DNA of 44,642 nt from Planctomycetota bacterium (GTDB taxonomy: Bacteria > Planctomycetota > SZUA-567): contig JAISYL010000025.1 in the NCBI GenBank assembly GCA_031269935.1, positions 1-44,642 on the forward strand. Direction: 5' to 3'. The number at the start of each line of letters is the position of its first letter. Positions within the stretch are counted from its first letter, which is position 1. Shown here one piece after another: positions 7,191 to 35,709 of this stretch. The notes beneath the pieces are model-generated. The model had not been told where the DNA came from. It ran no database searches and worked only from the letters and a program-made list of their open reading frames with translations. Position numbers and translations under genes: made by a program.

Positions 7191-7289
7191 GGCGCCGCTT
7201 GAATTTTCACTCCATTGGATGGCCTTGACCGGGGGAAGGGCCGATTCGTCCATCGTCAATTCTTCCCGAAAACGCCGAAGGACAAGCCG

Positions 7290-8303
7290 ATGCGTAAACT
7301 TTGCGCGATTGCCGTATCGCTGTTCGTGGTCTGCTCGTCCCGGTGGCTGGTTTTCGGCGGGGCGGAAATAATTTTCCGGGCCGGCAACATCCAGCCGGAA
7401 AGTTCCCCATGGAATCAGGGGCTGGACCGGTTGCGGGAATTGGTTGGCCGGTACACCGGGGGGCGAATCGAACTCATCGTCTACCCCAACGCCACTTTCG
7501 CCGCGGATCCCAATCTCATCAGACATTGCCAGGAGGGAACGCTTGACATGTATGTGGGCGATCCCGCCGCCGGCACCTCCGCTTTGGCCAAGGAACTCGA
7601 GCTTTTCGCCCTTCCCTTCCTGTTCCGGGATTACGAGCATTGGAAAAATGCCCTGGACGGCCCTCCCGGGCAGAAATATTCGCGGATAATCGAAGAGAAA
7701 ACCGGCCTGCGCATTGTCGGCTACTGGGGAGGCTCCTCCCGGAATCTCATCGCCGTCAACAAGCCGGTGGCCTCGATTGACGACCTGAAGGAATTCCGGA
7801 TCCGGCTGACCCCCTCGCTAATCAAGTTTCAGGTTTGGCAGGCCATCGGGACGCGGCCGGTGAACATCGTCTTCGGCGAAGCCTATGACGCCATGATTAA
7901 CGGCTTCTGCGACGGCATGGAAAACGAATTGTCGGCCATCATCGTCAACAAGCTCTATGAACCGGCCCGCTTCCTGACCATGACCGAGCACGAAATAACC
8001 GTCCGGCCGGTTTTCATCAACGCCAAAAGCATGGACCGGCTGTCCCCCCAGATAAAGGCCGCCTTTATGCTGGCGATGGTCGAGGCGACCGACCATGCCC
8101 GCCGGGTGGAAAAGGAGATCGATGATCGCGCGATCAGCGACTTGACCGGGAAATTCGGAATGATCCTGACGAGAATTGATCGGGAACCGTTCAAAAAAGC
8201 CACCGCGGACATAATCCGGCGGTTCGGGGAGGAAACCGGTTTGACCGGCCTGATCCAGGAATTGAAGACCTTCCCCCGGGAATCGGGGTCGCCGACCGGG
8301 TGA
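7290..8303 (+). CDS. TRAP transporter solute-binding protein, DctP family
   Basis: A 337-residue periplasmic protein with an N-terminal signal peptide (residues 1 to about 24). The family pattern is clear: an early FRAGNIQPESSPWNQGL segment, RIELIVYPNATFA, IVGYWGGSSRNL, the DDLKEFRIRL segment carrying the conserved ligand-binding arginine, and a long C-terminal helix. Such proteins capture organic acids, often carboxylates, for a DctQM permease. No DctQ or DctM gene is adjacent, so it either works with a permease encoded elsewhere or serves in sensing. The start is fixed by AAGGA eight bases upstream and by the signal peptide. It has its own promoter and converges on the phosphorelay operon. 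Confidence 0.9.
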   Translation: MRKLCAIAVSLFVVCSSRWLVFGGAEIIFRAGNIQPESSPWNQGLDRLRELVGRYTGGRIELIVYPNATFAADPNLIRHCQEGTLDMYVGDPAAGTSALAKELELFALPFLFRDYEHWKNALDGPPGQKYSRIIEEKTGLRIVGYWGGSSRNLIAVNKPVASIDDLKEFRIRLTPSLIKFQVWQAIGTRPVNIVFGEAYDAMINGFCDGMENELSAIIVNKLYEPARFLTMTEHEITVRPVFINAKSMDRLSPQIKAAFMLAMVEATDHARRVEKEIDDRAISDLTGKFGMILTRIDREPFKKATADIIRRFGEETGLTGLIQELKTFPRESGSPTG

Positions 8304-8353: not shown

Positions 8354-9250
8354 TCACTCCTGCAGCAACAAACCCATCGCGGCTTCGGCCGCCAGCGCTT
8401 GGTAATCGATTTCGTTGGAGGGTTTGCGCAGGCAGGCGTCGACCCCGTTGCCGGGCGCCATGACTTTTTCGATTTTGTCGTCGTTGGCGGTGCAAATGAT
8501 GAAACGGCAGGGAATGAGCTTGTGGTTTGTTTTCAAGTCGCGGCAGAATTCCACCCCGTTCTTGCCTTCCATTTCCAAATCGCTGATAATCGCCCGGGGC
8601 CGAAGCTTCAGCGCCAATTCCAGGCCGTCCCCCGGGTTCCCCGCCGATTCGGCGTGAAATCCGTGGTTTTCCAGAAGCGTTTTCAGCGAATCGCGCTGGT
8701 AGGCCGAATCCGAGACGATGAGGGCCTCGCGCCTTTGCTCGGCGGGGGGGGTGGAGAGAAGATAGGAAATCAGCTTGTAATTGGCCGCCAGCTTGGCCGC
8801 CAGCTTCTTGAAATCGCTTTCCAGCCGATTCAGGCCGTTCGGGTTTTCCGCTTGCGTACGGGAACGGGAGGGTCCGCTCAGGGCCCGGTCGATATAGTTG
8901 GCCAGGGACTCCGGATTGACCGGTTTGGCCAGGACCGCCGAGGCGCCTTCGTTCATCGCCATGATTATGTGCGGGATATCGGCTTCCCGGGGCAGGATGA
9001 AAATAAACTTCGGGGGGTTGCCGCCTTCGCTCACGGCCTGAAGAAGCTTGACGCCGGCGGCGTCCTCGACCTGGTAGTCTAGCACGACCACGGCCGCGCC
9101 GGAGCCGGCCACGGCCGCGGCGGCCTTTTGGGGATGATCGAAGGCGGCCAGGGGCGGCAAGAGACCGACCTGATGCTTTCTTTGCCGCAAATCGTCCGCC
9201 AGCCTCCGTTGTTCGACCTCGTCGGCCAGGCTTATCGATATGTTGGCCAT
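8354..9250 (-). CDS. Tandem-receiver response regulator without output domain
   Basis: A 298-residue protein with two CheY-like receiver domains. The first (about 1-124) has Asp58 in VVVLDYQ and Lys109 in VLAKP. The second (about 175-295) has Asp181 in the acidic pocket, Asp224 in IISDLEM, Thr254 and Lys276 in LRKP. The domains are joined by a helical linker (about 130-170). The first receiver has a weaker acidic pocket than usual (ADE near residue 10). There is no DNA-binding, enzymatic or PilZ domain, so it acts either as a phosphate sink or by protein contacts. It is the last gene of the CheY-CheA operon, seven bases after the kinase stop codon. Confidence 0.85.
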   Translation of the reverse strand: MANISISLADEVEQRRLADDLRQRKHQVGLLPPLAAFDHPQKAAAAVAGSGAAVVVLDYQVEDAAGVKLLQAVSEGGNPPKFIFILPREADIPHIIMAMNEGASAVLAKPVNPESLANYIDRALSGPSRSRTQAENPNGLNRLESDFKKLAAKLAANYKLISYLLSTPPAEQRREALIVSDSAYQRDSLKTLLENHGFHAESAGNPGDGLELALKLRPRAIISDLEMEGKNGVEFCRDLKTNHKLIPCRFIICTANDDKIEKVMAPGNGVDACLRKPSNEIDYQALAAEAAMGLLLQE

Positions 9251-9257
9251 GGGCGTC

Positions 9258-11420
9258 TCATTTCATAAGCATGTTTTCAAAGGATCCCACGAAATAATGG
9301 CGCTGGAGCTGGTTTTTGAAAAAGCGGTTGATGTCATCCAGGGGCAGCCGGGAGGCGAACATGATCTTGATCTTGTCCTTGACGACCCCCTTTTCGATGC
9401 GTTCCAGCGAAGGAACGGAATCGATGAGATCGGCCACCTCGGTCAGGCGGCGGATTATCAGGTAGGCCGAAAGGGAGGATTCCTGGAACGAGGGGAGCAG
9501 CCGCAGCAGGCTCTGGAAGACGTATACCCCCGGGGTTTTCATTTTGGCGTGGAAGACGAGGTTCCCCAGGGAGGAGAAATTGAAGGGCAGGTCGGCGGCG
9601 TCGCCCTCCTCGTCGCCCTCCCGCGAAACGGCTTCATGCTGGCGGTGGCTCCGCAGGGTCGCGAGAAGCTCGCCGTCGTTGATTTCGTAGCTTCGGCCGG
9701 CGCGGATTTCCGCCAATCCGGTTTCCAGGCTCTTGGCCGCGTCGAGCAGCAAATCGACGATTCCCTGGTCCACTTCCAGGGTCTTCTCCCGGATCCGGTC
9801 CAGGACGGATTCCACCTCGTGGACGAAAGCGCCCACATTGGCGAAGCCGGTCATCATGAAATTTCCCTTGATGGAATGGAAATGCCTGAAAATGGTGTTG
9901 ATGCGCGGGAGGCTGCCCGGCTCCTTTTCCAGCTGGAAAATGTCCTCGTTAAGTTCCTTCAGGATATCGTGGATCTCCACGAAAAACTGTTCGGCCAGGC
10001 CGTCGCCCGCCTCCAGGCCGGGTTTGGCGGTCGCCGGCGCCGGTTTTCCGCCCTGGCGATCGGGACCGGCGGCCGGGGCCGGATCCGATTCGGCTTCCCG
10101 GGCCGGACGCTCGACTTCGACCTCCACCGAATTGGCCGGATTGTAGGCGTTGGCGTCCAGGGAAGTGCCGCAGGCCATGGCGATCAGCTGGAAGGGGTCG
10201 ATGATCATGCCCAGTTGGCTGCCGCCCAGGATGGTGGTTCCGGATATGCCATTGGCCTTGAAGCCCTCGGGCAGGGGGATGAGAACCAGTTTCTGGGGGC
10301 GGATGAATTCCGAAACCTTGCAGGCGATGCGCCCGTTTTTGGCCTCTATTATCACGATGGAGACGGATTCGGCTTGCCGCTCTTCGGGCAGGGGGGTGCC
10401 TGACAACAGCCCCAGGAGATCGTGGAGGGGCAGGATCGAATCAAGATACAATATGCTCTCGCTTCGGCCCATGGTGGTGTTGATTTCGCTTTTCCGGATG
10501 GAATGGGTGGCGACCACGTTGCCCACCGGGATGGCGAAAAAACCCGAACCGGCCCGGATGATCACCGCGTCGGTGATGTTTACGGCGGAGAGTTGGGGAA
10601 TTTTATAGGTGAAGGTGGATCCTTTTCCGGGGGCGGATTCGATGACGACCTCCCCCCCCAGCGATTCGATGGTGGACTTGACCACATCCATCCCCACCCC
10701 CCGGCCGGAAATTTCCGTCGCCACCCTGGTGGTGGAAAAGCCGGGAGTCATGATCAGGTTTTTGCATTCGTCCGGCGACAGGGCGGCCCCCGGGGGAATA
10801 AGGCCTTTTTCGCCGGCGATTTCCCGGATTAGGCCGAAATCCAGGCCCCGGCCGTCGTCTTCCACCGATACATAGGTGAACTCTTCCTTCTTGTGGGCGG
10901 AGAGGATCAGCTTGCCGGTGGGATCCTTGCCGACATGCTGGCGCTCGAGGGGGTCCTCCAGGCCGTGATCCATGGCGTTGCGTATTTGGTGAGCCAGCGG
11001 TTCATAGAGGCGTTCGGCCACCGTTTTGTCAACCAGGGTGTCTTCCCCCACGATTTCGAAGTTTACCTGCCGTCCGCGCTTTTTGGCGATATCCCGCACC
11101 AGCCGGCGGAACCGGAGAAACGTCTCCTTGATGGGCACCATCCGGATGTCCATCACCAGATGATGCAGATCGGACGAGATGCGGCTGGTGCTCAGGGTGG
11201 CCAGCTTGACCATATCCATGGTTTCCTTGTCCACTTCGGCGGCTTTCCCGGTAAGGTGGCGTTGGAGAATGGATATGTTGGAGGCGGCGATGATGATTTC
11301 CCCGGTCAGGCCCAACAGGGTGTCGAGGTGGGAAATCTTGACTTGCATGCGATCAAGTTCCGGCGCTCCCTTGGCGTCCGGTTTTTCCTTGTCGCCAACG
11401 CGTTTCGGGTCACCATTCAT
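9258..11420 (-). CDS. CheA-type histidine kinase with permuted domain order
   Basis: A 720-residue kinase. In order it has a CheA dimerisation domain (about 25-120; LDTLLGLTGEIIIAASNIS), a catalytic HATPase domain (about 125-275; N box HQIRNAMDHG at 144-153, G1 VEDDGRGLD, G2 GRGVGMDVV), a CheW-like coupling domain (about 278-420), a Pro/Ala-rich linker (about 430-475), then the phosphotransfer Hpt domain (about 476-595) with the phospho-histidine His515 in FRHFHSIKG. The last segment (about 610-720) resembles the P2-like module that normally follows Hpt (ADLIDSVPSLERIEKG). Standard CheA begins with Hpt; here the Hpt half has moved to the C-terminus. All kinase motifs are intact. The start ATG overlaps the end of cheY by 11 bp. 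No receptor, CheR or CheB gene is in the window. Confidence 0.92.
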   Translation of the reverse strand: MNGDPKRVGDKEKPDAKGAPELDRMQVKISHLDTLLGLTGEIIIAASNISILQRHLTGKAAEVDKETMDMVKLATLSTSRISSDLHHLVMDIRMVPIKETFLRFRRLVRDIAKKRGRQVNFEIVGEDTLVDKTVAERLYEPLAHQIRNAMDHGLEDPLERQHVGKDPTGKLILSAHKKEEFTYVSVEDDGRGLDFGLIREIAGEKGLIPPGAALSPDECKNLIMTPGFSTTRVATEISGRGVGMDVVKSTIESLGGEVVIESAPGKGSTFTYKIPQLSAVNITDAVIIRAGSGFFAIPVGNVVATHSIRKSEINTTMGRSESILYLDSILPLHDLLGLLSGTPLPEERQAESVSIVIIEAKNGRIACKVSEFIRPQKLVLIPLPEGFKANGISGTTILGGSQLGMIIDPFQLIAMACGTSLDANAYNPANSVEVEVERPAREAESDPAPAAGPDRQGGKPAPATAKPGLEAGDGLAEQFFVEIHDILKELNEDIFQLEKEPGSLPRINTIFRHFHSIKGNFMMTGFANVGAFVHEVESVLDRIREKTLEVDQGIVDLLLDAAKSLETGLAEIRAGRSYEINDGELLATLRSHRQHEAVSREGDEEGDAADLPFNFSSLGNLVFHAKMKTPGVYVFQSLLRLLPSFQESSLSAYLIIRRLTEVADLIDSVPSLERIEKGVVKDKIKIMFASRLPLDDINRFFKNQLQRHYFVGSFENMLMK

Positions 11421-11814
11421 GATCGAATATCCTGACCAGGACAGTTTTAAGCATCTCCACGGACGGGGGCTTTACGATGTAATCGTCGGCCCCGAGGTGG
11501 AGGGCGCGGAAAATGTATTTGGCGTCGTCGTGGGTGGAGATAATCACCAAGGGAAGAGAGCGGTGGTTGGGCGAATTGCGGATGGCCTCGGTTAATTCAA
11601 ACCCGTCCATTTCCGGCATTACCAAATCGCTTACGACTAGGTCGAACTTGCCGTTTTTCAGGATCTCCAGGGCTTCCAATCCGTTTTTCGCCTCCCGGGC
11701 GGAAGCCCCCAGCCCAGTCACGATATCCTTGATGGCTTTGCGTACCGCCGGATAGTCGTCGACAATGAGGATCGACTTGTCTTTCCAGGGGATTCCGGAA
11801 TCGGTTGCGTTCAT
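11410..11814 (-). CDS. CheY-like single-domain response regulator
   Basis: A 134-residue receiver domain: acidic pair Asp19-Asp20 in ILIVDDYP, phospho-acceptor Asp63 in VVSDLVMPEMDG, switch residue Thr94 in IISTHDD, and Lys115 in IVKPP. It has no output domain. I start it at the ATG at 11814, preceded by a GGAAAG; an upstream in-frame extension to 11898 is low-quality sequence without a ribosome site. It is the first gene of the operon with the permuted CheA, which is its likely phosphodonor. Its target could be a flagellar switch or another protein; neither flagellar nor pilus genes are visible here. Confidence 0.93.
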   Translation of the reverse strand: MNATDSGIPWKDKSILIVDDYPAVRKAIKDIVTGLGASAREAKNGLEALEILKNGKFDLVVSDLVMPEMDGFELTEAIRNSPNHRSLPLVIISTHDDAKYIFRALHLGADDYIVKPPSVEMLKTVLVRIFDHEW

Positions 11815-17296: not shown

Positions 17297-17815
17297 TTAT
17301 TTTTTCAATTTGTAGAGGCCGCGCCCGGTCTGCTCGAAATAGCCGTTCTGGGTCGCCAGAAGAACCGAAATGCGCTTGCGCAGAGCCGGCACCCCCAAGG
17401 CTTTCACCCTGGTTTTGGGCAACCGCTCGACGATTTCCCTGGCCTTGAGCGGCTCTTCCGACTTGTCCAGGATTTTTCTGACTAGGCTGGCCAGGCTGCC
17501 GGGGGACGGCTTTCTCCCCTTTCTGGCGGAGTCGATCGGCTGATCGGCGGCCGGCGCCTCCCCCTCGGCCGGCTTGGCCCGGGCGGCCTTGGCGGCTTTC
17601 CCGGCGGATTTGCGCCGGACGGGCGGGGCCGGGGAAAAATCCGCCCCCGCGAGGGCGGCCAACCTCTGATCCAGCTTATCCAGCGTCTCCGCCAGCTTGG
17701 CGCGTTTCTTTTTCAATTCAACCGCCCTTTTTCCGCCGAGTTTCTTCAAACGGATGACTTCCCGGATGTCCCGATCCGAAAGTTGTCCGGCGATGATTTT
17801 CAGATTGCGTTTCAT
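17297..17815 (-). CDS. Winged-helix (HARE-HTH-like) protein with Lys/Ala-rich linker
   Basis: A 172-residue basic protein. The N-terminal half (to about 65) is a predicted coiled coil rich in Lys and Leu (IREVIRLKKLGGKRAVELKK, LAETLDKLDQRLAAL); a low-complexity Ala/Lys/Pro linker follows (about 70-105). The last 65 residues fit the HARE-type winged helix: LVRKILDKSEEPLKAREIVE, LRKRISVLLATQNGYFEQTG, ending GRGLYKLKK. It may bind DNA or be an architectural chromatin protein. The ATG is preceded by GGAG with a ten-base spacing. It is the first gene of the operon with ubiB, and is divergent from parA. The domain name is my reading and needs a profile search. Confidence 0.65.
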   Translation of the reverse strand: MKRNLKIIAGQLSDRDIREVIRLKKLGGKRAVELKKKRAKLAETLDKLDQRLAALAGADFSPAPPVRRKSAGKAAKAARAKPAEGEAPAADQPIDSARKGRKPSPGSLASLVRKILDKSEEPLKAREIVERLPKTRVKALGVPALRKRISVLLATQNGYFEQTGRGLYKLKK

Positions 17816-18062
17816 GATGAATTTTCTCCAAATTTTCGAATCACGAATTTCCCGAAAACTCTTTTGAGCACCCCCTGAATGTTCTTTATATTTTTTGCCC
17901 GCGATGCGATCCCCGGGGTTTCGGGCAAGACGAATCGCCGAAAAATCGGGCGAAACGCCGCCGTCGAAACGTTCCCCGACCGCGGAATGAAATGCCGATT
18001 CATATCTTGCAATTTCAATCCGGGAGGCGGCAAAAAACGAATTCAAGAACGACAAGGGAAAA

Positions 18063-18090
18063 ATTATAGGCATGAAAAACCCGGGGTAAA
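18063..18090 (-). promoter_or_regulatory. Probable promoter of the winged-helix-ubiB-MEMO operon
   Basis: On the minus strand TTTACC (18085-18090), a 16-bp spacer and a perfect TATAAT (18063-18068). The 5' leader to the ATG at 17815 would be about 240 bases. The 642-bp divergent gap (17816-18457) contains this and the parA promoter but no convincing gene. Confidence 0.55.
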
Positions 18091-18212
18091 GTATTTTTTG
18101 CCGTTCGCGGGGCGAATTCGGCGCGGTCGGAAGTTTGTCCGAAGGCGGGTTTGGTGTTCGGCCGGCCAAATTCGCCGCGAAGCGGGAGGGGGAGGAAAAA
18201 ACCTTTCTCAAT

Positions 18213-18241
18213 TTGACTTGTCCGGCGGTTGACCATATATT
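18213..18241 (+). promoter_or_regulatory. Sigma70-type promoter of parA
   Basis: TTGACT (18213-18218), a 17-bp spacer and TATATT (18236-18241). The leader to the parA ATG at 18458 would be about 210 bases and is very GC-rich (runs of GGCCGGCC near 18285-18300). Confidence 0.75.
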
Positions 18242-18457
18242 TAACTGTCCCCTTCGGGCCCGTTGCCGGGGGGGGAGCGACGACCCGCCGGCCGGCCGGC
18301 GATGGGGGGCTCGATGATTGCCGCCGGGAAAAGGCGCGGGGAGGGTTTTCCAAAATACGGCGGGGGCTGGGTTGAATTGTTGCCGGGGATTGCCCATCGG
18401 CCTGAAAAGCCGGCTTTGTCCGCGCCCTTCATTGGCCGAATCCCCGGGGAGTCGTTG

Positions 18458-19354
18458 ATGGCGGCCAAGATCGTGGCGATGATGAATCAGAAGGGTGGAG
18501 TGGGAAAAACCACCGCCACCGTGAACATCGGCGCTTTTCTGGCCCGGGAGAACCACAAACGGGTGTTGCTGGTCGATATCGATCCCCAGGGCAGCCTGTC
18601 GGAACATGTCGGCCTCCCCCCCCGGGACAACGAGGATTCGATTTATGACGTCTTGATTGAAGGAGTGGATCCCCGCCGGATAATCCGCCGGGTGCGGGGA
18701 TTCGAGGTTTTGCCGGCCAATCGGGACTTGTCGGGCGCGGATCTGGAATTGGCCAGGCTGCCGAACTGGCATCTGCGCCTTCGCGACGCCCTGGCCGGAA
18801 TCAGGGGCCAATATGATTTCATCCTCATGGACTATCCGCCCGGCCTGGGAGTGTTGACGGTTTCGGGATTGGCGGCGAGCGACGTGGTGGTGGTCCCGAT
18901 GGAGGCGGAGTATCTGGCCCTGCATGGGATGAGCCAGCTTCTGGATACGGTTGCCCAGGTTAGGGATCGCCTTAATCCCGGCCTGGAAATCGGCGGGATC
19001 ATTTTCTGCCGTTTCGACGGGCGCACCACCCTGGCCCGGGATGTCAAGGCGGAAATCGACAAATATTTTCCCGGCAAGGTGTTCGCCACCGCGGTTCGCC
19101 AGAACATCAAGCTGGCCGAGGCGCCGAGCCACCGGCTGACGATTTGCGAATACGATCCCAAATCGCCCGGGGCCGAGGATTACCGCCGGGTCGCGGCCGA
19201 ATTCCTTACCCGTTTCGGTTCCCCCGGCCCCGCCGGGTGCGGGACGGGGGCGGGGGCGATCATCCCGCCGGGGGATATCATGGCCGAGACGCCGATTGTT
19301 CCCGATGAGGCCACCGGCCGGGGGGAATGGCAGCGGCAGCCGGTTTGGCGATAG
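18458..19354 (+). CDS. parA: ParA/Soj family ATPase
   Basis: A 298-residue ParA-type P-loop ATPase. The deviant Walker A KGGVGKTT is at 12-19; VLLVDIDPQGSLSEH is Walker A', and ILMDYPPGLG is Walker B, with Tyr in the place of the more usual Cys or Thr. These proteins segregate chromosomes or plasmids or position large complexes, working with a ParB-like or other activator. No parB gene follows; the next gene is dinG, 28 bp on. The C-terminal 30 residues (after EFLTRFG) are low-complexity. The ATG at 18458 has GGGGAG upstream and begins exactly at the conserved domain, so a longer frame from 18263 was discarded. Confidence 0.9.
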   Translation: MAAKIVAMMNQKGGVGKTTATVNIGAFLARENHKRVLLVDIDPQGSLSEHVGLPPRDNEDSIYDVLIEGVDPRRIIRRVRGFEVLPANRDLSGADLELARLPNWHLRLRDALAGIRGQYDFILMDYPPGLGVLTVSGLAASDVVVVPMEAEYLALHGMSQLLDTVAQVRDRLNPGLEIGGIIFCRFDGRTTLARDVKAEIDKYFPGKVFATAVRQNIKLAEAPSHRLTICEYDPKSPGAEDYRRVAAEFLTRFGSPGPAGCGTGAGAIIPPGDIMAETPIVPDEATGRGEWQRQPVWR

Positions 19355-19382
19355 GCGCGGACAAGGCGCGGGGGGAGGTCCG

Positions 19383-22226
19383 ATGTATCAGGTGGTGGCG
19401 GCCATAGACTTGGAGACCACGGGGCCCGACCCCTACAAGGATCGCATAATCGAAGTGGGGGCGCTGATCCTCGAGGACGGAATGCCCGGCCGGGAATTTT
19501 CCGAACTTGTCGATCCGGAACGCCCCCTCGCCCCCGGCATCATCAAGCTTACCGGCATTACCCCGGCCCTGCTTCGGGGCGCCCGGGATCAGGCGGCGGT
19601 GCTGGAGGATTTTCTCGCCTTTCTCCCTCCCGGGGCGCTCTGCATCGCCCACAACGCCTCTTTTGATCGGCAATTCCTCCGGGTGGCCACCAAGGACAGG
19701 TTTTCCCACACCGTCCTGGACACCGTGGAATTGTCGCGCATCTGCTTTCCCGAACTCCACAGCCATAGCCTGGCCGTCCTCGCGGAGGAATTCGGATTCC
19801 GGCGGGACAAATCGTCGCACCGGGCCCTCGCCGACTGCGAAACCCTGACCCAGCTCTGGCTGACGATTCTGGAAAAGGCCGAGGAAATACCCTTGGCCGC
19901 GCTGGGGGAAATGAACCGCCTGCTGGCGGCCAATCCCCGGCATCCCTACCGCGATTTTTTCGCCCGCCTGGCGGCGAAACGCCTGTCGGAAGGCCTGGGC
20001 GCCGAAACCGATTTGGCCGCCCTCTTCGCCCCGGCGGGCAACTTCTCCCTCCGCCAACCCGCCGAGGGTTTCGAAGAGTCGAATAAACCGATCGAGGAGG
20101 AGGGGATACGGGATTTTTTCGCCCCCGGCGGAACCCTGGCCCGGATTTTCCCGGGGTATGAAAGCCGGGACGGGCAAATGGAAATGGCGGTTTCCGTCGC
20201 CCGGGCGCTTAACGCGGGCAAGCATCTCATGGTCGAGGCCGGGACCGGCATCGGCAAGAGCCTCGCCTATCTCGTCCCGGCGCTGGCCTTCGCGGTCCGC
20301 AACCGGGTCCCGGCGGTGGTGAGCACCAATACCAAGAATCTCCAGTCCCAACTCTTCGAAAAGGATCTGCCGCTGCTCCGGAAAGCCCTGGGGTTCGATT
20401 TCAAGGCCGCCCTTCTCAAGGGACGCGGGAATTACCTATGCCTCAGGAGGCTTCTCTACATTTTGGAGCAGATGGACGCCGAACTGGACGGCGAGGACCG
20501 CATGCGCCTGCTAAACCTCATCCCCTGGTCGGTGTGGACCCGGACGGGCGACATTTCGGAAAACATCGTCGCCGGCCGGCCCCATTTCGCGCCGCTCTGG
20601 GCCAAGCTCACCACGGTGGGCGACGAATGCCTCGGCCGGTCCTGCCGGAGATTCCGCCAGTGCTTTCTTTGGAAGGCCCGCTCGGCGGCCAGGGAGGCGG
20701 ATTTGGTGGTGGCGAACCATTCGCTGATCCTGGCGGACCTGGGCTCCAAAACCCCGGCCATACCCGAATACCAGTGCCTGGTTATCGACGAGGCCCACAA
20801 TTTGGAGGATTCCGCCACCAATCACCTGGCGGCGGAATTGACTCAAATCCGGATAGTGGTGGCGGTCAACCGTCTTCACCGCCCGGGCCGCAAGGGTTCG
20901 ACCGGCTTGACCGCTAGCTTGGAAAAGATCCTGGCCGCCGCCGGTCCCCCGGATTTCACCGAACCGGGATTGGGCTGTCTCGACGGCATCCGGGCGGCGG
21001 TGCTGAAGACGCACGAGGCCCTGCCCGGCTTTTTCCAGGCGCTGGACGCGGCGCTGGCCTCCAAAAAATCCGGCGACACCGCCCGGTTTCGCGCCGACGA
21101 CAAGCGCCTGGAGGTGTGGGAGCCGGTGGAGGCGGCCCGGCGCGCCCTTTTTTCCGCCCTGGCCGGAGTTTTGGCCGGAGTGGAGCGCCTTTCCGGGCTG
21201 CTCCGGGAGATGGACGAGGACACCCTTCCCCACCAAAGCGAATTCATTCGCGAATTGGAGGCCTCGGCGGCGTGGATCCGGGAAATAACCGAGGACGCGG
21301 CCTTCATCCTGGAGGCCGCCGGCGACAATTATGTTTACTGGCTGGAACGATCGGGAGGCAAAACCGGCCTGATCCGGGCGGTGGCGGCGCCAATCGAGGT
21401 GGGGCCGCTGCTTTTCGACCAGCTCTACCAGAAAAAGAGAAGCGTCGTCTTCTGTTCCGCCACCCTGACGGTCAGGAACCGCTTCGACTTCCTGGCCCGG
21501 CGGCTGGGGATATCCCTGATTCCCCCCGAACGCCTGGATTCCCTCGACGCCGGGACCCCCTTCGATTTTCCCGGCCAGTGCATGGCGGCGATCCCGATGT
21601 TCCTTCCGGATCCCGGAGTCCGGGATTCGGACTATGCCCGGGAATTGGCCGTGTTTCTTTCCGAGGTGTTCCGCCGTACCGAGGGGAGGGGCATGGCGCT
21701 TTTCACCAGTTACGACATGCTCACCCGGGTGGCGGACATGCTGGAGGAGGAATTTCTCGGCGACGGCATCAACCTCCTGGTCCAGGGCCGCTCGGGATCC
21801 CGGGAAAACATCACCGCGATGTTCAAGCGCGGCAACCGGGCGGTGCTGTTGGGAACCCACTCGTTTTGGGAGGGGGTCGACGTGGTCGGGGACGCCCTTT
21901 CCTGTCTGGTCATCGCCCGGCTGCCGTTCGGGGTGCAGACCGACCCGATCATCGAGGCGCGGTGCGGGAAGGTGGAGGCCGACGGCGGCAACGCGTTCAT
22001 GGAATACACCATTCCCTCGGCGGTGATCCGCTTCCGCCAGGGGTTCGGCCGGTTGATTCGCTCCCGCTCGGACCGGGGGGTGGCCATTGTGGCGGACCGC
22101 CGGATGGCGGTGAAGCGGTACGGCCAATGGTTCCGGGACTCCCTCCCGGTCCGGGCGGAAAATTATCCGGACCGGGAAAGACTGCTTGACGACATCCGGG
22201 AATTTCTGGCCCCGGGAGAAGATTGA
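19383..22226 (+). CDS. dinG: DinG-type DEDDh exonuclease-Fe-S helicase fusion
   Basis: A 947-residue protein. Residues 1 to about 190 are an EXOIII/DnaQ-like 3'-5' exonuclease with Asp9 and Glu11 in AIDLETTG, HNASFDRQF, and HRALADCETL. From about 250 comes an XPD-family superfamily-2 helicase: Walker A EAGTGIGKS, four cysteines of an Fe-S cluster (GRGNYLC, then CLGRSCRRFRQC), VIDEAHNLE, FCSATLT, and motif VI RFRQGFGRLIRS. This is the layout of Bacillus-type DinG. The exonuclease residues are all present, so both activities are expected, in DNA repair or replication. The ATG at 19383 has GGGGGAGG upstream. Confidence 0.93.
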   Translation: MYQVVAAIDLETTGPDPYKDRIIEVGALILEDGMPGREFSELVDPERPLAPGIIKLTGITPALLRGARDQAAVLEDFLAFLPPGALCIAHNASFDRQFLRVATKDRFSHTVLDTVELSRICFPELHSHSLAVLAEEFGFRRDKSSHRALADCETLTQLWLTILEKAEEIPLAALGEMNRLLAANPRHPYRDFFARLAAKRLSEGLGAETDLAALFAPAGNFSLRQPAEGFEESNKPIEEEGIRDFFAPGGTLARIFPGYESRDGQMEMAVSVARALNAGKHLMVEAGTGIGKSLAYLVPALAFAVRNRVPAVVSTNTKNLQSQLFEKDLPLLRKALGFDFKAALLKGRGNYLCLRRLLYILEQMDAELDGEDRMRLLNLIPWSVWTRTGDISENIVAGRPHFAPLWAKLTTVGDECLGRSCRRFRQCFLWKARSAAREADLVVANHSLILADLGSKTPAIPEYQCLVIDEAHNLEDSATNHLAAELTQIRIVVAVNRLHRPGRKGSTGLTASLEKILAAAGPPDFTEPGLGCLDGIRAAVLKTHEALPGFFQALDAALASKKSGDTARFRADDKRLEVWEPVEAARRALFSALAGVLAGVERLSGLLREMDEDTLPHQSEFIRELEASAAWIREITEDAAFILEAAGDNYVYWLERSGGKTGLIRAVAAPIEVGPLLFDQLYQKKRSVVFCSATLTVRNRFDFLARRLGISLIPPERLDSLDAGTPFDFPGQCMAAIPMFLPDPGVRDSDYARELAVFLSEVFRRTEGRGMALFTSYDMLTRVADMLEEEFLGDGINLLVQGRSGSRENITAMFKRGNRAVLLGTHSFWEGVDVVGDALSCLVIARLPFGVQTDPIIEARCGKVEADGGNAFMEYTIPSAVIRFRQGFGRLIRSRSDRGVAIVADRRMAVKRYGQWFRDSLPVRAENYPDRERLLDDIREFLAPGED

Positions 22227-22249
22227 GGTTCCCCCCCAAGGATATCCGC

Positions 22250-24079
22250 ATGCCGACCCGCATCGAGGACCTTCGCAACATCGCCATCATCGCCCACGTG
22301 GATCACGGCAAAACCACCCTGGTCGACGCCCTGCTCCGGCAATGCCACGTCTTCCGGCAAAACCAGGAGATGGTGGACTGCGTCCTGGATTCCAACGCCA
22401 TCGAGCGCGAACGGGGGATAACCATCTTTTCCAAGAACGCCTCCATCAATTACCGGGATGTCCGCATCAACGTCATCGACACCCCCGGGCACGCCGATTT
22501 CGGGGGCGAGGTGGAGCGGGTGCTCAACATGGCCGACGGCGTCCTTCTCCTGGTCGACGCCTTCGACGGCCCCATGCCCCAGACCCGCTTCGTGCTTCGC
22601 AAGGCGCTCCAGGCTGGCCTGAAGCCGCTGGTAGTAATCAACAAGATTGATCGTCCCGGCGCCCGCCCCCACGAGGCGCTGGACGAGGTGTTCGAACTGT
22701 TCCTGCAATTGGGCGCCGCGGAGGAACAGTTGGATTTCCCGGTGATCTACGCCTCCGGCCGGCAGGGGGTGGCCAAGCTGGAAATCGGCGACAGGTCCTC
22801 CGACTGCCGGCCGCTTCTGGACGCCATTATCCGGCATATTCCCCCGCCGGAGGCGGATCGGGACGGCCCCTTGCAGATGCAGGTGGCGGCCATAGACTAC
22901 AACGACTATGTCGGGCGCATCGCCATCGGGCGGGTGGGGCGCGGGCGGCTGCGGGAAAAAACCGAGGTGGCGGTGCTGTTCCGCGACGGGGGACGGCGGA
23001 CCGGGCGCGTCGAGCAGGTCCAGATTTTTTCCGGGATCGGCCGGACCGGGGCGGAAGAGGTGGGGGCCGGGGATATCGCCCTGGTGACGGGAATTCCCGA
23101 CATCGGCATTTACGACACCATCGCCGATCCGGATAATCCCGAGCCCCTGCCGGCCGTGTTGATTGACGAACCCACCCTGACCATGGAATTCCGCCCCAAC
23201 GACAGCCCCTTCCTCGGCCGGGAAGGGCGGTTCGTCACCAGCCGGCATTTGAAGGAACGCCTGGAGCGCGAACTCAGGAGCAATATCGCCCTCCGGCTGG
23301 AGCAGACTCCGGAGGGTTTTTTGGTGAGCGGACGGGGTTTGCTTCATCTGGGAATCGTTATCGAGACCATGCGCCGCGAAGGATACGAGTTCGCGGTGGG
23401 CCGTCCCCACGTGATTTTTCACGAACGGGACGGGGAGCGGCTGGAGCCGATCGAACTGCTTTCGGTCGACGTTCCCGAGGATATGGGCGGCAAGGCCATG
23501 GAACTGGCCGGTTCCCGCCGGGGAGTGCTGGAAAAGATGGATCGTCGCCCCGACGGCCTGCACCTGTCCTTCAAGATCCCCAGCCGGGGTTTGATCGGCC
23601 TGCGCGGGCGGCTGCTCACCGCCACCCGGGGGGAGGCGGTGATGCACCACGTCTTTTGGGATTACGAGGCGTACCGGGGGGAGGTGCCGGGCCGTCCCAA
23701 CGGCGTCCTGGTCTCGTCCTCCCGGGGCAAGTCCACCGCCTATGCCCTGGACGGCCTGCAGCTGAGGGGCCAATTTTTCATTCATCCCGCCACCGACGTC
23801 TACGAGGGGATGGTTGTGGGGGAAAATTCCCGTCCGGACGATTTGGAGGTCAATGTCTGCCGGGAAAAGAAATTGACCAACGTACGCGCTTCGGGTTCCC
23901 ATGATCGGAACGCCGATTTGGCCCCTCCCCGGGAATTCTCCCTGGAGGCGGCGCTTGAGTATCTCGAGGACGACGAATTGCTTGAGGTGACCCCGGCGAG
24001 CCTGCGCCTGCGCAAGCGCATACGTTCCGAGAATGATCGCCGCAAGGCGGTAAGGCTGGCCAAATCGGCGGGCGAATAG
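22250..24079 (+). CDS. typA: Ribosome-binding GTPase TypA/BipA
   Basis: A 609-residue translational GTPase. G1 is AHVDHGKT near residues 15-22, G2 [14 protein letters not shown]3 [10 protein letters not shown]4 NKIDRPGA. The C-terminal half carries the TypA-specific domain ([20 protein letters not shown] and [18 protein letters not shown]). TypA assists 50S assembly and growth under stress. The ATG at 22250 with AAGGA seven bases upstream is preferred to an earlier in-frame TTG at 22223. The gene follows dinG by 23 bp. Confidence 0.97.
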
Positions 24080-29595: not shown

Positions 29596-30165
29596 ATGGA
29601 GGAAATCCTGAGGGGTGAATCGGTGATTCTTGGGGTCACCGGGAGCATCGCCGCCTACAAGGCGGCGGTTTTGGCCAGCGGCCTGACGCAGGCCGGGGCG
29701 CTGGTGGACGTGGTCATGACCGAGGCGGCCCGGGAATTTGTCACCCCGCTTACCTTTTCCGGTCTTACCCATCGCAAGACCTATACGGATATTTGGGAGG
29801 CGGAACGAAAGCCCGGGCATGTCGCCTTGGCGGAACGCCCGGATATTGTCGTGGTGGCGCCGGCCACCGCCAATACCATGGCCAAAATGGCCCAGGGTCT
29901 GGCCGACAATCTCCTGACCTCCATTCTTCTCGCCACCCGGAAACCCGTCCTTCTGGCTCCGGCCATGAATTCCGGCATGTGGGAAGCCCCGGCCACCGCC
30001 CGCAATCTGGAAAGATTGCGGGCCGACGGCATTCGGCTGGTCGGACCCAAAAGCGGGGGATTGGCCTGCGGGGATCGGGGGATCGGCCGGATGGCCGAAC
30101 CGGCGGAAATACTTGCCGCCATTGGGGAATGGCTGGCTGAAATCGCCGCCGCCCGGTGGTGTTGA
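29596..30165 (+). CDS. coaC: Phosphopantothenoylcysteine decarboxylase, stand-alone CoaC
   Basis: A 189-residue flavoprotein of the HFCD family that decarboxylates 4'-phosphopantothenoylcysteine in CoA synthesis. Visible are the FMN-binding start VILGVTGSIAAYKAA, the proton-donor histidine region with GHVALAERPDIVVVAPATANT, the substrate motif PAMNSGMW, and the cysteine flap GLACGDRGIGRM. The CoaB synthetase domain usually fused behind it is absent; the frame stops cleanly after EIAAARWC. The ATG at 29596 has AAGGA five bases upstream; the ATG two codons earlier overlaps that site. It lies between hppA and metH. Confidence 0.9.
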   Translation: MEEILRGESVILGVTGSIAAYKAAVLASGLTQAGALVDVVMTEAAREFVTPLTFSGLTHRKTYTDIWEAERKPGHVALAERPDIVVVAPATANTMAKMAQGLADNLLTSILLATRKPVLLAPAMNSGMWEAPATARNLERLRADGIRLVGPKSGGLACGDRGIGRMAEPAEILAAIGEWLAEIAAARWC

Positions 30166-30202
30166 GCCGGTACGGGGATTGGCCGGAAACGGGGCTTGCC
30201 TT

Positions 30203-32656
30203 ATGCGGCGGAGCGAATTTCGCGAACTTGCCGGGAAAAGAGTCCTGGTCCTGGACGGGGCGACCGGCACCGAATTGTTCAAATGCGGTTTGCCGCCGGG
30301 GGTTCCGCCGGAAGGATGGATTCTCGAAAATCCCGAAATCATCCGCCGCCTGCACCGGAATTATTACGCGGCCGGTTCCGATTTCGTCCTTGCCTGCACT
30401 TTCGGGGCCAACCGGATCAAATTGGCGCATCACGGCCTCGCCGGCGCCGCGGCGGACCTCAACCGGCGGCTGGTTGAAATCTCCCGCCGGGAGACCCCTC
30501 CCGGAAAGTTCATTCTTGGGGATATTTCCCCCACCGGGCAATTTGTCGAACCCTTCGGACCCCTGGCTTTCGACGAGGCGGCGGCGATATTCCGGGAACA
30601 GGCCGCCGCCCTTCTGGCCGGAGGGGCCGACGGCTTGTTCATTGAAACCATGATGGACATTCAGGAAGCCCGCGCCGCTTGTCTTGGGGCGAGGGAAGCT
30701 GGCCCGGACACCCCGATTCTGGTCAGCATGACCTACGAGGAAAACGGCAGGACCCTGGGCGGAACTCCCCCGGAGGCGGCTTTGGTCATCCTTCAGTCGC
30801 TGGGGGCGGACGCGGTGGGCTGCAACTGCTCCTCCGGGCCGGAGGGGATGCTGGCCCACCTGGAACGGATGCTGCCGCTGGCCCGGGTTCCGGTGTTCAT
30901 AAAGCCCAATGCCGGTCTGCCCAGGCTGGTGGACGGGGAAAACCGTTACGAAATGGCTCCGGAGCCGTTTTCCGAGGCGGTCATGCGGGGAGTGGAATTG
31001 GGGGCCGGCTTGGTGGGCGGCTGCTGCGGGACCTCCCCCGAACATATCCGGACCCTCCGGCGCCGCCTGGATCGCCGGGGGGGAACCGGGCCGCGCCCGG
31101 CCGGGCCGGCCGCCGTCCTGGCCTCGGCCAGGCGAAAGCTGGCCTTCGCCGACCCCGGCGGGAAGCTTCCGTTGCTGATGGTGGGGGAGAGGATCAACCC
31201 CACCGGGAAGAAGGCGTTCCAGGCCGAGTTGCTGTCCGGGGATTACAGCCGGGTGTTGACCTTCGCCGAAGAGCAGGAAAAATCGGGGGCGGAGCTCCTG
31301 GATGTCAACCTGGGACTGGGCGGCCTTGACGAGGCGATCGCCCTGCGGCGGGCGGTCGGCATGCTGGCCGCGGCCTCCCCCCTTCCCTTGGTGATCGACA
31401 CCGTCGATCCGGCCGCGATGGAGGCGGCTCTCCGCCTTTATCCCGGCCGGGCCCTGGTCAATTCGGTGTCGGGCGAGCAAAAGCGCCTGGAGGGGATTCT
31501 GCCCCTGGCCGCCGAATACGGCGCCATGATTATCGTGCTGCCGGTGGGGGACGGCTTCATTCCCGCCGGGGCGGGGGATCGCCTCAAGGTGGCCGAGGAA
31601 ATCGTCGGACGGGCCGGAGAGGCCGGGCTGGGCCCGGCCGATCTGCTGGTGGACGGGGTGGCGATGGCGGTGAGCGCCGATCCCCTGGCCGCCCTGGCCA
31701 CCCTTGAATTCATTTCGCTTTGCCGGGTTCGGGGGTGGTCGACCATTTTGGGGCTTTCCAACGTCTCCTTCGGGATGCCGGATCGCAAATGGATTAATTC
31801 CGCGTTTCTGGCCATGGCCATGGCCAACGGCCTGAACGCCGCCATAGTCAACCCGTCCTCCGACTTGTTGAGGGAAATCAAGGCGGCCGCCGATCTGCTT
31901 GCCGGCCGCCACGAGGCCGCCACCGCCTATATCGAGAAATTTTCCCGGCCGCCGGCCGGGACGGCCGATCGGGGCAAGGGGAGCCCGCCGCCGGGGGGAA
32001 CCGGGGAGGCGTCTCCCGAAGCCTTGGCGGCCCGGGCCATTCTCAAGGGCAACCTCAAGCAGGCGGCCGAATTGGCCCGCAAGGCGATCGACGCCGGGGT
32101 GGACGCGGGTCGCCTGGTGGCGGACAGCCTGGTGCCCGCCATTGTCGAGGCGGGGGAGCTTTTTGAACGGAAAATATATTATCTGCCGCAATTGATGCTG
32201 GCCGGCGAAGCCATGCGCCTGGCTTTGGCCGAGGTGGAGCCGGACCTGGCGAGGGAACGGGAAGGCGGGGCGGCGGCGGCCGACGGCCGGATAGTCATGG
32301 CCACCGTCCGGGGCGACGTTCACGACATCGGCAAAAACCTGGTTTCCCTGATGCTGAGAAATCACGGCTACGAGGTTCTTGATTTGGGCAAGGACGTTCC
32401 GGCGGCCGAGATCGTCCGGGGAATCCGGGAACACCGCGCCGCCATCGTCGGCTTGTCCGCCCTCATGACCACTTCCCTCTCCGCCATGCGGGAAGCCATC
32501 GGGATGATCCGGGAATCCTGTCCCGGGGTGGGCATAGTGGTGGGGGGGGCGGCGGTTACCCGGCATTTCGCCGACGAGGCGGGGGCCGACGGCTATTCCC
32601 CCGACGCCGTCTCGGCGGTCAGGCTGGCCGGGGAATTCCTTAAGGGGAGGGGCTGA
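30203..32656 (+). CDS. metH: Cobalamin-dependent methionine synthase, short form
   Basis: An 817-residue enzyme that transfers a methyl group from methyltetrahydrofolate to homocysteine through cobalamin. The homocysteine domain (about 1-295) has zinc ligands Cys207 (GCNCSSGPEG) and Cys274-Cys275 (GGCCGTSPEH). The pterin domain follows (about 320-575; MVGERINPTGKK, GLSNVSFGMP), then the cobalamin cap and Rossmann domain (from about 615), with the lower-axial His707 in DVHDIGKN. The C-terminal reactivation domain of enterobacterial MetH is absent, as in Thermotoga MetH, so a separate reductive activator is needed. The ATG at 30203 has only a weak GGGG upstream. The stop overlaps metF by one base. 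Confidence 0.95.
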   Translation: MRRSEFRELAGKRVLVLDGATGTELFKCGLPPGVPPEGWILENPEIIRRLHRNYYAAGSDFVLACTFGANRIKLAHHGLAGAAADLNRRLVEISRRETPPGKFILGDISPTGQFVEPFGPLAFDEAAAIFREQAAALLAGGADGLFIETMMDIQEARAACLGAREAGPDTPILVSMTYEENGRTLGGTPPEAALVILQSLGADAVGCNCSSGPEGMLAHLERMLPLARVPVFIKPNAGLPRLVDGENRYEMAPEPFSEAVMRGVELGAGLVGGCCGTSPEHIRTLRRRLDRRGGTGPRPAGPAAVLASARRKLAFADPGGKLPLLMVGERINPTGKKAFQAELLSGDYSRVLTFAEEQEKSGAELLDVNLGLGGLDEAIALRRAVGMLAAASPLPLVIDTVDPAAMEAALRLYPGRALVNSVSGEQKRLEGILPLAAEYGAMIIVLPVGDGFIPAGAGDRLKVAEEIVGRAGEAGLGPADLLVDGVAMAVSADPLAALATLEFISLCRVRGWSTILGLSNVSFGMPDRKWINSAFLAMAMANGLNAAIVNPSSDLLREIKAAADLLAGRHEAATAYIEKFSRPPAGTADRGKGSPPPGGTGEASPEALAARAILKGNLKQAAELARKAIDAGVDAGRLVADSLVPAIVEAGELFERKIYYLPQLMLAGEAMRLALAEVEPDLAREREGGAAAADGRIVMATVRGDVHDIGKNLVSLMLRNHGYEVLDLGKDVPAAEIVRGIREHRAAIVGLSALMTTSLSAMREAIGMIRESCPGVGIVVGGAAVTRHFADEAGADGYSPDAVSAVRLAGEFLKGRG

Positions 32657-33543
32657 TGGCCAAGAGCGCGGCGGCGGTCATGCACGAGCGCCTTTATCAC
32701 CGGGAACCGGTGTTTTCCTTCGAATTTTTCCCCCCGAAGGACGAAGCCGGCCGGCTGACCCTGGAGCGCTCCCTGGAGCGGCTGGCCCCCCTCAATCCGG
32801 CTTTTGTCTCGGTCACCTGCGGCGCGGCCGGCGGCACCCGGGATCTCACCCGGGATTTGGTGTTGTCCATGCAGGGGCGCTACGATTTCGCGGTGCTGGC
32901 CCATATAACCGCCACCGGCTACAGCAAGCGCGAATTGGCCGATTTGGTGGTCGACTATCGCCGGCGGGGCATAATGAATTTTCTCGCCCTGCGGGGGGAT
33001 CCTCCCCGGGATCGGCCGGATTGGCGGCCGCCCCCGGATCAGTACGCGCACGCCGCCGAGGTGGTGGAAGTGATTCGCGCCGCCGCGCCCGACGCCTCGA
33101 TTGGGGTGGCCGGCTATCCCGAGACGCATCCGGAGGCTCCGGACGCCCGGAGCGATTTGCTGAGGCTGGCGGAAAAAGTGGAGGCCGGGGCGGATTTTGT
33201 CATTACCCAGCTGTTTTTCGACAATGAACTGTATTTTGACTTTGTCGGCCGCGCCCGGAAGATCGGGGTCCGGGTTCCCATCCTCCCCGGCCTCATGCCG
33301 ATCACCCGGCCCGGGCAGGCGGAACGGTTCCGCGAACTCTGCCGGGTGGATGTCCCCGTTTCCCTGGCCGAGCTTTTGGCCCCGGGCGACGAGGCCTATG
33401 CCCGGGGCGTCGGCGTCTCCTACGCCGCGGCCCAGATGGCGGATCTTTTGCGCCGCGGCGCCTGCGGAATTCATCTCTACACCTTGAACCAATCCCGGAC
33501 CTCCCACGCCTTGTACCGGATAGCCAGGGGGCTGGGATGGTAG
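32656..33543 (+). CDS. metF: Methylenetetrahydrofolate reductase
   Basis: A 295-residue flavoprotein reducing 5,10-methylene- to 5-methyl-tetrahydrofolate, the methyl donor for MetH. It has FSFEFFPPK with catalytic Glu23, SVTCGAAGGTRD, ILALRGDPP-type segment (NFLALRGDPPRD), GVAGYPETHPEA and FVITQLFFDN. The TGATG junction with metH implies translational coupling. The length matches the bacterial MetF family. Confidence 0.96.
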   Translation: MAKSAAAVMHERLYHREPVFSFEFFPPKDEAGRLTLERSLERLAPLNPAFVSVTCGAAGGTRDLTRDLVLSMQGRYDFAVLAHITATGYSKRELADLVVDYRRRGIMNFLALRGDPPRDRPDWRPPPDQYAHAAEVVEVIRAAAPDASIGVAGYPETHPEAPDARSDLLRLAEKVEAGADFVITQLFFDNELYFDFVGRARKIGVRVPILPGLMPITRPGQAERFRELCRVDVPVSLAELLAPGDEAYARGVGVSYAAAQMADLLRRGACGIHLYTLNQSRTSHALYRIARGLGW

Positions 33544-33557
33544 GGATCCGAAAAGGC

Positions 33558-33654
33558 CGGCGTTGCGAACGCCGAAGTCCATTCGCTTCAGAATCCACCT
33601 CCGTCGCCAAGGGGGAACTCGCTCCCCCGGAGGCTGAAACCGGATTTCCCCGGG
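33558..33654 (-). repeat. Dispersed repeat R1, copy C (inverted, lacks first hairpin)
   Basis: Read on the minus strand this matches copy B closely over about 75 bases: CCTCCGGGG, a TTCCCC block, GGAGGTGGATTCTGAAGC and GGACTTCGGCGTTCGCAA, in the same order. It ends with a perfect small hairpin, GGCGTT-CGC-AACGCC (33559-33573). The long 5' hairpin of copies A and B is missing; the element stops just before the next gene. It occupies nearly the whole 123-bp gap after metF. Confidence 0.78.
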
Positions 33655-33666
33655 AGTGCCGCCGCC

Positions 33667-34254
33667 ATGATGGACGCCATCGGCAAGATGACCATTTCCG
33701 AAATCACGCTTCTTTTCGTTCTGTTGTTCGTCCTGCCGGGAATGGCCGGTCTCCTTTTCCGCCTGCGCGAGTACGAGTCGCGGTCGGGGGATCCCCGGGG
33801 CTCGAAAAAGGGTAAAAGAAGGGAGCCGCCGCCCCCCCCGCCCCCGGCAGATCGGGTTCCCGACGATGTTTTCCCCTATCGGCGGCGGCCCTTCCTGTCG
33901 CCGCCGGAATTGGCCTGTCTAGCCGCCCTGCGGGAGGCGCTGGCGGCCGACGAGGTCGATGTTTTCCCCAAGGTTGGCCTATGGGAACTGGTGGAACCGA
34001 CCGACAAGAACCCCGGTTACGCCGCGCGTTTGTCCGCCCTGGACTTCGATTTCCTGGTCTGCGAGCGGCAAACCAGCCAGCCGATTGTCGCCATCCTGTT
34101 CACTCCCGCCCGGGACAGGCCCGCCGGACCGGCGGGCCTGCGGGAAAAAATCTGCAAGGCCGCCGGCATCGACGCGGTTTTCATTGATTTGGAGGAGAAA
34201 TACGAGGTGAAAAGGCTCAAGGAGGTTTTGGGCATAGCCGAAGCGAATTTGTGA
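33667..34254 (+). CDS. Membrane-anchored DUF2726-like protein, degenerate active site
   Basis: A 195-residue protein: an N-terminal membrane helix (about 11-32), a charged and proline-rich linker (about 38-62 with a seven-proline run), and a C-terminal domain (about 77-190) resembling DUF2726, a restriction-endonuclease-like fold. Family landmarks are FLSPPELACLAALREAL, VFPKVGLWELVEP and LDFDFLVCERQTSQPIVAIL. The acidic ELDD-like stretch that normally follows the last strand is replaced by FTPARDRP, so nuclease activity is doubtful. Function unknown. It is followed after 4 bp by the lipid A acyltransferase. Confidence 0.7.
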   Translation: MMDAIGKMTISEITLLFVLLFVLPGMAGLLFRLREYESRSGDPRGSKKGKRREPPPPPPPADRVPDDVFPYRRRPFLSPPELACLAALREALAADEVDVFPKVGLWELVEPTDKNPGYAARLSALDFDFLVCERQTSQPIVAILFTPARDRPAGPAGLREKICKAAGIDAVFIDLEEKYEVKRLKEVLGIAEANL

Positions 34255-34258
34255 GGCC

Positions 34259-35149
34259 ATGCGGATATACCTGCGTTACCTCTTGTTTCGGGTCCTGATA
34301 GCGCTCTGCGATCTGCTGCCCCAGCGCTTCCTCTATTTTGCCGCCCTGCGCCTGGCCGATTTGAATTATTATTGGCTGGATCGCCGGGGCGGGCGGGCGG
34401 TGGAGGACAATTTGCGGGTGGTCCTGCCCGAAGCCTCCCCGGAGCGCCTGGCCAAGGAAGCCCGATGGGTGTTTCGCAATTTCGCCAAGTATCTGACCGA
34501 ATTTTTCCGCTTTCGCCATTTCGGACCGGCTTTTTTCCGGACCAACATGGCGATGTTCGGCCTGGAGCATATTGAAGCCGCCCTCGCCGCCGGCCGGGGC
34601 TGCGTCGTTTCCTCCGCCCATTTGTCCAATTGGGAATTGGGCGCGGCCGGACTGTCGATAATGGAGGGGAAGAAAATGACCGTGTCGGTGGCCATGCACC
34701 GCTACGGCAGGATAAACGACCTTTTCATGCGCGAGAGGGAGCGGATGGGCCTGCGGGTGGCGGACATGGAAAGGGACGCCGCCAGGGCGCTGCTCCGCGC
34801 CTTGCGCCGGAACGAGGTGGTGGGGGTCATGGGCGACCGGGATCCGACCGAGCAGGGGGTGATCATCCGCTTTTTCGGGCGGCCCTGCCGTTTCCCCCAG
34901 GGTCCGGCCCGGCTTTCGCTGGCGACCGGGGCGCCGCTCGTTCCCGCCTTTTGCCTGAGGCGTTCCAACGACAGCTTCTCCTGCGTGTTCCATCCCCCCA
35001 TCCCGATACCCGCGGCCGGGGATCGCGCGGAAAAGGTTTGCCGGATGACCCAGGCTTTCGCCGACGTCATCGCCGAGACCATCCGCCTGCACCCCGAGCA
35101 ATGGGCGGTGTTCTATCCGTTTTGGGAGGGCAATTGGCGGCCGGAATAG
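34259..35149 (+). CDS. Lipid A biosynthesis acyltransferase, LpxL/HtrB family
   Basis: A 296-residue inner-membrane acyltransferase. It has an N-terminal hydrophobic segment (YLRYLLFRVLIALCDLLP), the catalytic HxxxxE motif in SSAHLSNWEL, MGDRDPTEQG and the FPQGPARLSLATGAPLVPAF block typical of the LpxL/LpxM group. It would add secondary acyl chains to the lipid A precursor. The lpxK gene at 36485 belongs to the same pathway. The ATG is preceded by GTGAGG, 4 bp behind the DUF2726-like gene. Confidence 0.9.
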   Translation: MRIYLRYLLFRVLIALCDLLPQRFLYFAALRLADLNYYWLDRRGGRAVEDNLRVVLPEASPERLAKEARWVFRNFAKYLTEFFRFRHFGPAFFRTNMAMFGLEHIEAALAAGRGCVVSSAHLSNWELGAAGLSIMEGKKMTVSVAMHRYGRINDLFMRERERMGLRVADMERDAARALLRALRRNEVVGVMGDRDPTEQGVIIRFFGRPCRFPQGPARLSLATGAPLVPAFCLRRSNDSFSCVFHPPIPIPAAGDRAEKVCRMTQAFADVIAETIRLHPEQWAVFYPFWEGNWRPE

Positions 35150-35295
35150 AGGCAAGCCGCCTCGCCAAGGGCATGCCGCGAATCGGGAAAAATGTTCAAT
35201 TCATCCCTTGCCAAGATTTTTTTTTCCGATAGGGTACGCCGTTGCGGCGGGCGGGTCATCGGGCCGATTTTCGCGGATTCAAGGGGAGGGGGGAA

Positions 35296-35634: not shown

Positions 35635-35709
35635 AATCCCCCTTCGGCGTCCCCGGAACTCGTTTTCGGATAATCTTGTCAAGGTTTTTGGCATCGGGAG
35701 GGGAGTATC

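Follow-up and report, generated by a model that had tools for sequence, protein, structure and literature searches.

Domain architecture of CheA kinases

Canonical CheA kinases, as those from E. coli, T. maritima, and B. subtilis, follow the domain order P1-P2-P3-P4-P5, with P1 and P2 located N-terminal of the P3-P4-P5 core. A survey of 13,673 CheAs (Berry et al. 2023; PMC10782961) describes in its text several variations, including (i) loss of P2, (ii) duplicated Hpt, CheW, or P2 domains, (iii) fused receivers, present in ~34% of CheAs and mostly C-terminal or beyond CheW, (iv) CheC or CheX fusions, and (v) bipartite CheAs.

The CheA-family protein described here is encoded in a stretch of 44,642 nucleotides from a Planctomycetota bacterium (assembly GCA_031269935.1, contig JAISYL010000025.1), hereafter the window, and displays the order P3-P4-P5-P1-P2. 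It shares with the canonical enzymes all five domains, the P4 boxes, the P1 phosphorylation network, and a T. maritima-type P2 (Pfam P2), but differs in the domain order, in the loss of the charged hallmarks of P5, and in being flanked only by receiver genes. In bipartite CheAs, such as CheA3/CheA4 from R. sphaeroides with its separate Hpt gene, P1 is likewise uncoupled from the N-terminus of P3, whereas the permuted CheA carries P1-P2 at the opposite end, covalently joined within a single chain. CheAs with a C-terminal receiver, comprising CheAY of Helicobacter and Campylobacter and the Tfp and ACF classes, also carry domains after P5; nevertheless, the permuted CheA appends the phosphodonor P1-P2 and not a receiver. 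On the other hand, a CheA from the same Planctomycetota family with the organization Hpt-Hpt-P2-P3-P4-P5 preserves the standard order and occurs in genera where the permuted gene was not found; in one genome (G007), it shares its contig stretch with an MCP and a CheW domain.

No report of the P3-P4-P5-P1-P2 order was found in the open-access literature, the paper retrieved with "circular permutation" and CheA (PMC2829493) being concerned with gene order and not with domains. A C-terminal Hpt-P2 is not described in the survey text, which addresses the domain composition of RefSeq bacteria and where absence is no proof (PMC10782961). The existence of many described CheAs with this order, named beforehand in the initial annotation as evidence against a permutation, has no counterpart in that text, and the permuted order extends the rules of CheA architecture as laid out there.

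Overall architecture of the permuted CheA

The best explanation of the locus, at a probability of roughly 0.78, is that the P1-P2 half moved once to the C-terminus, giving rise to a CheA-family kinase that serves the adjacent receivers. The open reading frame starts with ATG and its features are collected in Table 1.

Table 1. Features of the permuted cheA gene and the flanking receiver genes, in window coordinates
Feature	Position	Strand	Basis or remark
CheY-like single receiver	11410..11814	(-)	overlaps cheA start by 11 bases
Permuted CheA, 720 aa, P3-P4-P5-linker-P1(Hpt)-P2	9258..11420	(-)	ORF list, Pfam
P3 / H-kinase_dim, residues 26-92	11145..11345	(-)	Pfam, 22.6 bits (threshold 23)
P4 / HATPase_c, residues 137-276, catalytic boxes intact	10593..11012	(-)	Pfam, alignment
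P5 / CheW-like, residues 285-414, divergent	10179..10568	(-)	Pfam, alignment
Pro/Ala-rich linker, residues 417-470, 35% P+A, fast evolving	10011..10172	(-)	sequence, dN/dS
P1 / Hpt, residues 475-565	9726..9998	(-)	Pfam, PDB profile, AlphaFold
Phosphorylation site His515 (in P1)	9876-9878	(-)	
P2 response-regulator-binding domain, residues 647-703	9312..9482	(-)	Pfam, profiles
Double-receiver protein	8354..9250	(-)	7 bases downstream of cheA stop

The order dimerization-HATPase-CheW-linker-Hpt-P2, originally read from the sequence, is recovered by Pfam in the window copy and in all six intact homologues, each of which contains the five domain families. In the window copy HATPase_c, CheW, Hpt, and P2 pass their cut-offs, the exception being H-kinase_dim, which falls 0.4 bits short and reaches 24.9 bits, above the cut-off, in the most distant homologue. 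A profile search against solved structures aligns residues 24-409 with P3-P4-P5 of CheA from T. maritima (1b3q and others) and residues 483-580 with CheA P1. The protein consequently holds in one chain the P3-P4-P5 core and an Hpt with a phosphorylatable histidine, but departs from the canonical architecture, in which P1 and P2 precede the core. An N-terminal Hpt, also named in advance as counter-evidence, is absent by Pfam: the segment ahead of P3 comprises only 25 residues, and the upstream gene encodes a lone receiver. According to the same scan, the protein contains neither a receiver domain nor a second Hpt.

The pairwise dN/dS values comprise 0.02-0.11 for P3, 0.07-0.15 for P4, 0.04-0.18 for P5, 0.04-0.22 for Hpt, and 0-0.33 for P2, with 0.11-1.24 for the linker. 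All domains are under purifying selection and the linker drifts; the long linker to which the initial annotation drew attention spans 54 aa and evolves fast compared with the constrained domains on either side.

The permuted order occurs in nine other genome assemblies and therefore does not stem from an assembly join. It is very improbable that the protein stems from faulty assembly or gene calling, or that its gene is decaying: although all the sources are draft metagenome-assembled genomes and three of the ten copies are interrupted, seven uninterrupted copies come from separate assemblies, the others being ~66-75% identical over the full length to the window copy, and the dN/dS values disclose strong purifying selection. 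As for the description as a working circular permutation, the permuted order and five intact, constrained domains are borne out; "working" is a reading of this conservation, set against the interruption of 3/10 copies.

The interruptions lie in the P3-P4 region of draft assemblies and comprise two frameshifts at different places (G001 C176, L018; G003 C360, L019) and one in-frame TAG (G004 C255, L012); they may reflect draft error or decay.

The phosphotransfer domains

P1 keeps the residues His515, Lys518, His534, and Glu537, with His515 being the histidine of the HxxKG motif (FRHFHSIKGN), as assigned from the outset. The checked residues of the N, G1, F, and G2 boxes of P4 are kept in 7/7 permuted copies, so that the early statement that all catalytic residues are retained holds for the P1 set and for these box residues. 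More broadly, 52 columns reach a conservation of at least 85% across 52 standard CheA cores; the permuted copies preserve 43 of them, including the P4 catalytic boxes.

The segment first described as P2-like is a real P2: the Pfam family is found in the 6/6 homologues, the top PDB match of its profile is P2 of CheA from T. maritima (1u0s, E 0.029), and the profile also matches the P2 located between Hpt and P3 of a standard Clostridial CheA (5.5e-6). An AlphaFold model of the C-terminal half, computed from an alignment that included standard P1-P2 rows, without E. coli CheA, displays the Hpt helices at pLDDT ~95, and the fold that matches them best in the PDB is CheA P1. P2 has no confident fold in this model, and its assignment therefore relies on the profiles. 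A full-length model built from six sequences was too poor for use (pLDDT 43).

Hybrid kinases usually have a C-terminal Hpt. The possibility that the C-terminal Hpt is a phosphorelay domain of the ArcB/BarA type, instead of the substrate of the kinase itself, draws on this general resemblance and appears improbable, since (i) the best sequence and fold matches among natural proteins of solved structure are to CheA P1, (ii) it retains the CheA P1 set of His, Lys, His, and Glu, and (iii) the Hpt is followed by P2, in a protein without a receiver domain or another Hpt.

The P5 domain and array coupling

Five of the nine conserved columns that are changed in the permuted CheA fall in P5. Specifically, Ala304, Leu326, Ser370, and Gly400 replace Glu, Arg, Asp, and Asp, respectively; the replacements are invariant in 7/7 permuted copies, and the original residues are present in 45-48 of 52 standard CheA rows (87-92%). 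In the alignment, Ala304 and Leu326 take the positions of Glu38 and Arg62 in E. coli CheW; the salt bridge between the latter two is reported to maintain the alignment of the receptor site with the kinase site in CheW (PMC3828127). The permuted P5 consequently lacks both the Glu-Arg pair of the CheW fold and the two Asp residues of array-forming CheA P5, and its match to the CheW profile, at 36-50 bits, is one of the weakest for full-length P5 domains in these genomes.

According to the initial annotation, an altered array geometry must follow from CheW no longer being the last domain of the chain. This argument is weak, given that ~34% of CheAs carry a receiver, mostly C-terminal according to the survey text, and a P5 away from the chain end is therefore common (PMC10782961). 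It is the loss of the four conserved P5 residues that renders array coupling of the permuted CheA doubtful, as judged from the alignment.

How far this change extends is weighed in two ways. A kinase that operates outside the receptor arrays, with P5 bound to a new partner and the cassette acting as a separate two-component module driven by a CheA engine, is a serious contender at somewhat less than even odds. It would account for the loss of Glu, Arg, Asp, and Asp in 7/7 copies of a domain that is nonetheless constrained (dN/dS 0.04-0.18), for the low CheW-profile score, and for the lack of a recognizable MCP or CheW gene beside the cassette in genomes that encode MCPs and standard CheAs elsewhere. 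However, 9/52 standard rows, gapped ones counted, are likewise without an intact Glu/Arg pair, the R62A substitution in CheW does not abolish CheA or receptor binding (PMC3828127), and P5 is still a recognizable CheW fold. Those nine rows keep both Asp where the residues are present. A tentative, slightly less favored proposal is that the permuted CheA left or rewired its place in the array: P5 would have given up its contacts with CheW and receptors in favor of a different partner, and the kinase would act as a private line to the two neighboring receivers. Given the relocated P1-P2 half, the matched loss of hallmark residues in P5 points to a possible co-evolution of tether position and array coupling.

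The neighboring receivers

The CheY-like receiver preserves Asp63, Thr94, Tyr112, and Lys115, invariant among relatives, in agreement with the initial assignment of Asp63 as the candidate acceptor. The double receiver, which was found alongside the permuted CheA in those relatives that were examined, has two invariant residues, Asp58 and Asp224, and its first domain, REC1, is devoid of the conserved Lys; REC1 is possibly a pseudo-receiver. The usual acidic pair is also absent from REC1, as read from the sequence.

The three-gene cassette, with cheY and cheA overlapping and cheA separated by a few bases from the double-receiver gene, is kept in relatives in which the other neighbors differ. No MCP, CheW, CheR, or CheB gene was recognized beside the cassette, and only receiver genes are common to the loci; the locus accordingly falls outside the chemosensory gene clusters defined by such genes next to cheA.

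Proposed mechanism

Judging from the conservation pattern, the permuted protein is probably functional as a CheA-type kinase and dedicated to the receivers encoded next to it. In the scheme that we infer for its kinase activity, phosphotransfer partners, rearrangement, and output, (i) P1-P2 would have moved from the N- to the C-terminus in a single event that predates the divergence of three related Planctomycetota genera; (ii) the P3-P4-P5 core would dimerize and bind ATP; (iii) P4 would phosphorylate, presumably in trans like standard CheA, His515 of P1, which a flexible linker suspends from P5; (iv) P2 would recruit the receivers encoded on either side of cheA; and (v) the phosphoryl group would pass to Asp63 of the CheY-like protein and/or to Asp224 (Asp58) of the double receiver. 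P5 would be retained in altered form, its partner being either a standard CheW/receptor array or something else.

In standard CheA, P1 and P2 are carried on long disordered linkers, and liberated P1 is functional, as stated in the texts of PMC10653900 and PMC10782961; the new tether point is mechanically plausible for these reasons. Two models of CheA control are under debate: P1 may be sequestered beneath P3-P4, or regulation may act on ATP binding (PMC10653900). A naturally occurring kinase whose P1 hangs from P5 and not from P3 could help to separate them because it reveals whether the attachment site makes a difference.

Distribution

The permuted cheA gene was found in 10 of the 18 genomes of the GTDB order, all within three genera of a single Planctomycetota family. 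A search of 392 genomes of the phylum with the C-terminal half of the protein retrieved the ten genomes at 295-656 bits and all other matches at no more than 72 bits; the best of these other Hpt matches, where examined, are located N-terminal of the core. Collecting homologues by domain order, as initially recommended, yields the permuted order, among the open reading frames retrieved, in this family only: Hpt is N-terminal in 90 retrieved open reading frames that combine Hpt and core, and the 18 exceptions are permuted-family copies, some counted twice. Plasmid-borne CheAs from Pseudomonas HR96, Bacilli, and Clostridia, which cover most of the query, display the standard order.

A wider scan with family-specific motifs, comprising one genome per species from 84,980 species, identified nine orthologs, all from metagenome-assembled genomes named Planctomycetota or Planctomycetaceae, together with one weak cyanobacterial Hpt match. 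The isolate codes suggest a termite gut habitat for the orthologs. Genomes with the permuted CheA also encode standard-order CheAs, MCPs, CheW, and, where searched, FliM; within the genus of the window, the number of MCPs ranges from 9 to 36 per genome.

Phylogeny and origin

The permuted copies form one clade with support of 100/100 and a long stem. With more references, this clade joins the standard Hpt-Hpt-P2-P3-P4-P5 clade of the same family (96/76), suggesting that the latter is its nearest relative among the sequences compared. The standard clade comprises four proteins with two Hpt domains and P2 (G007 C20, L055; G011 C40, L081; G013 C43, L064; G037 C2, L086), with P2 above the Pfam cut-off in the first three. 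The permuted gene and the Hpt-Hpt-P2 standard CheA do not coexist in any genome among those examined, a complementary distribution that, in few genomes, suggests the replacement of one CheA type by the other. The P2 match had also raised an origin from a Clostridial (F1-type) CheA; the tree places the clade nearer to the standard CheA of its own family, though not firmly.

Regarding the route of rearrangement, the permuted gene may have arisen by fusion of an already split CheA, with the core gene followed by a separate Hpt-P2 gene, instead of by tandem duplication and trimming. Such a fusion is conceivable, with odds of about one in three: the survey text documents bipartite CheAs whose Hpt is encoded by a distinct gene of the same operon (PMC10782961), and the boundary falls exactly at the junction of core and P1-P2 module. 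Nevertheless, no Hpt-P2 gene beside a core-only CheA was recognized in the 18 genomes of the order, in which short and contig-end frames were partly covered, and the nearest standard clade is a fused Hpt-Hpt-P2-P3-P4-P5 protein, at a support (96/76) that is not firm.

Other features of the window

An Rfam scan of the window gave no match. Several long open frames (611, 538, 579, 933, 329, and 376 aa) in positions 17297-23902 and 29765-36243 have no Pfam match, and some of them may represent the wrong strand of G+C-rich coding sequence. Directly beyond the cassette, on the opposite strand, lies a gene for a TRAP-type DctP solute-binding protein (7215-8303, +).
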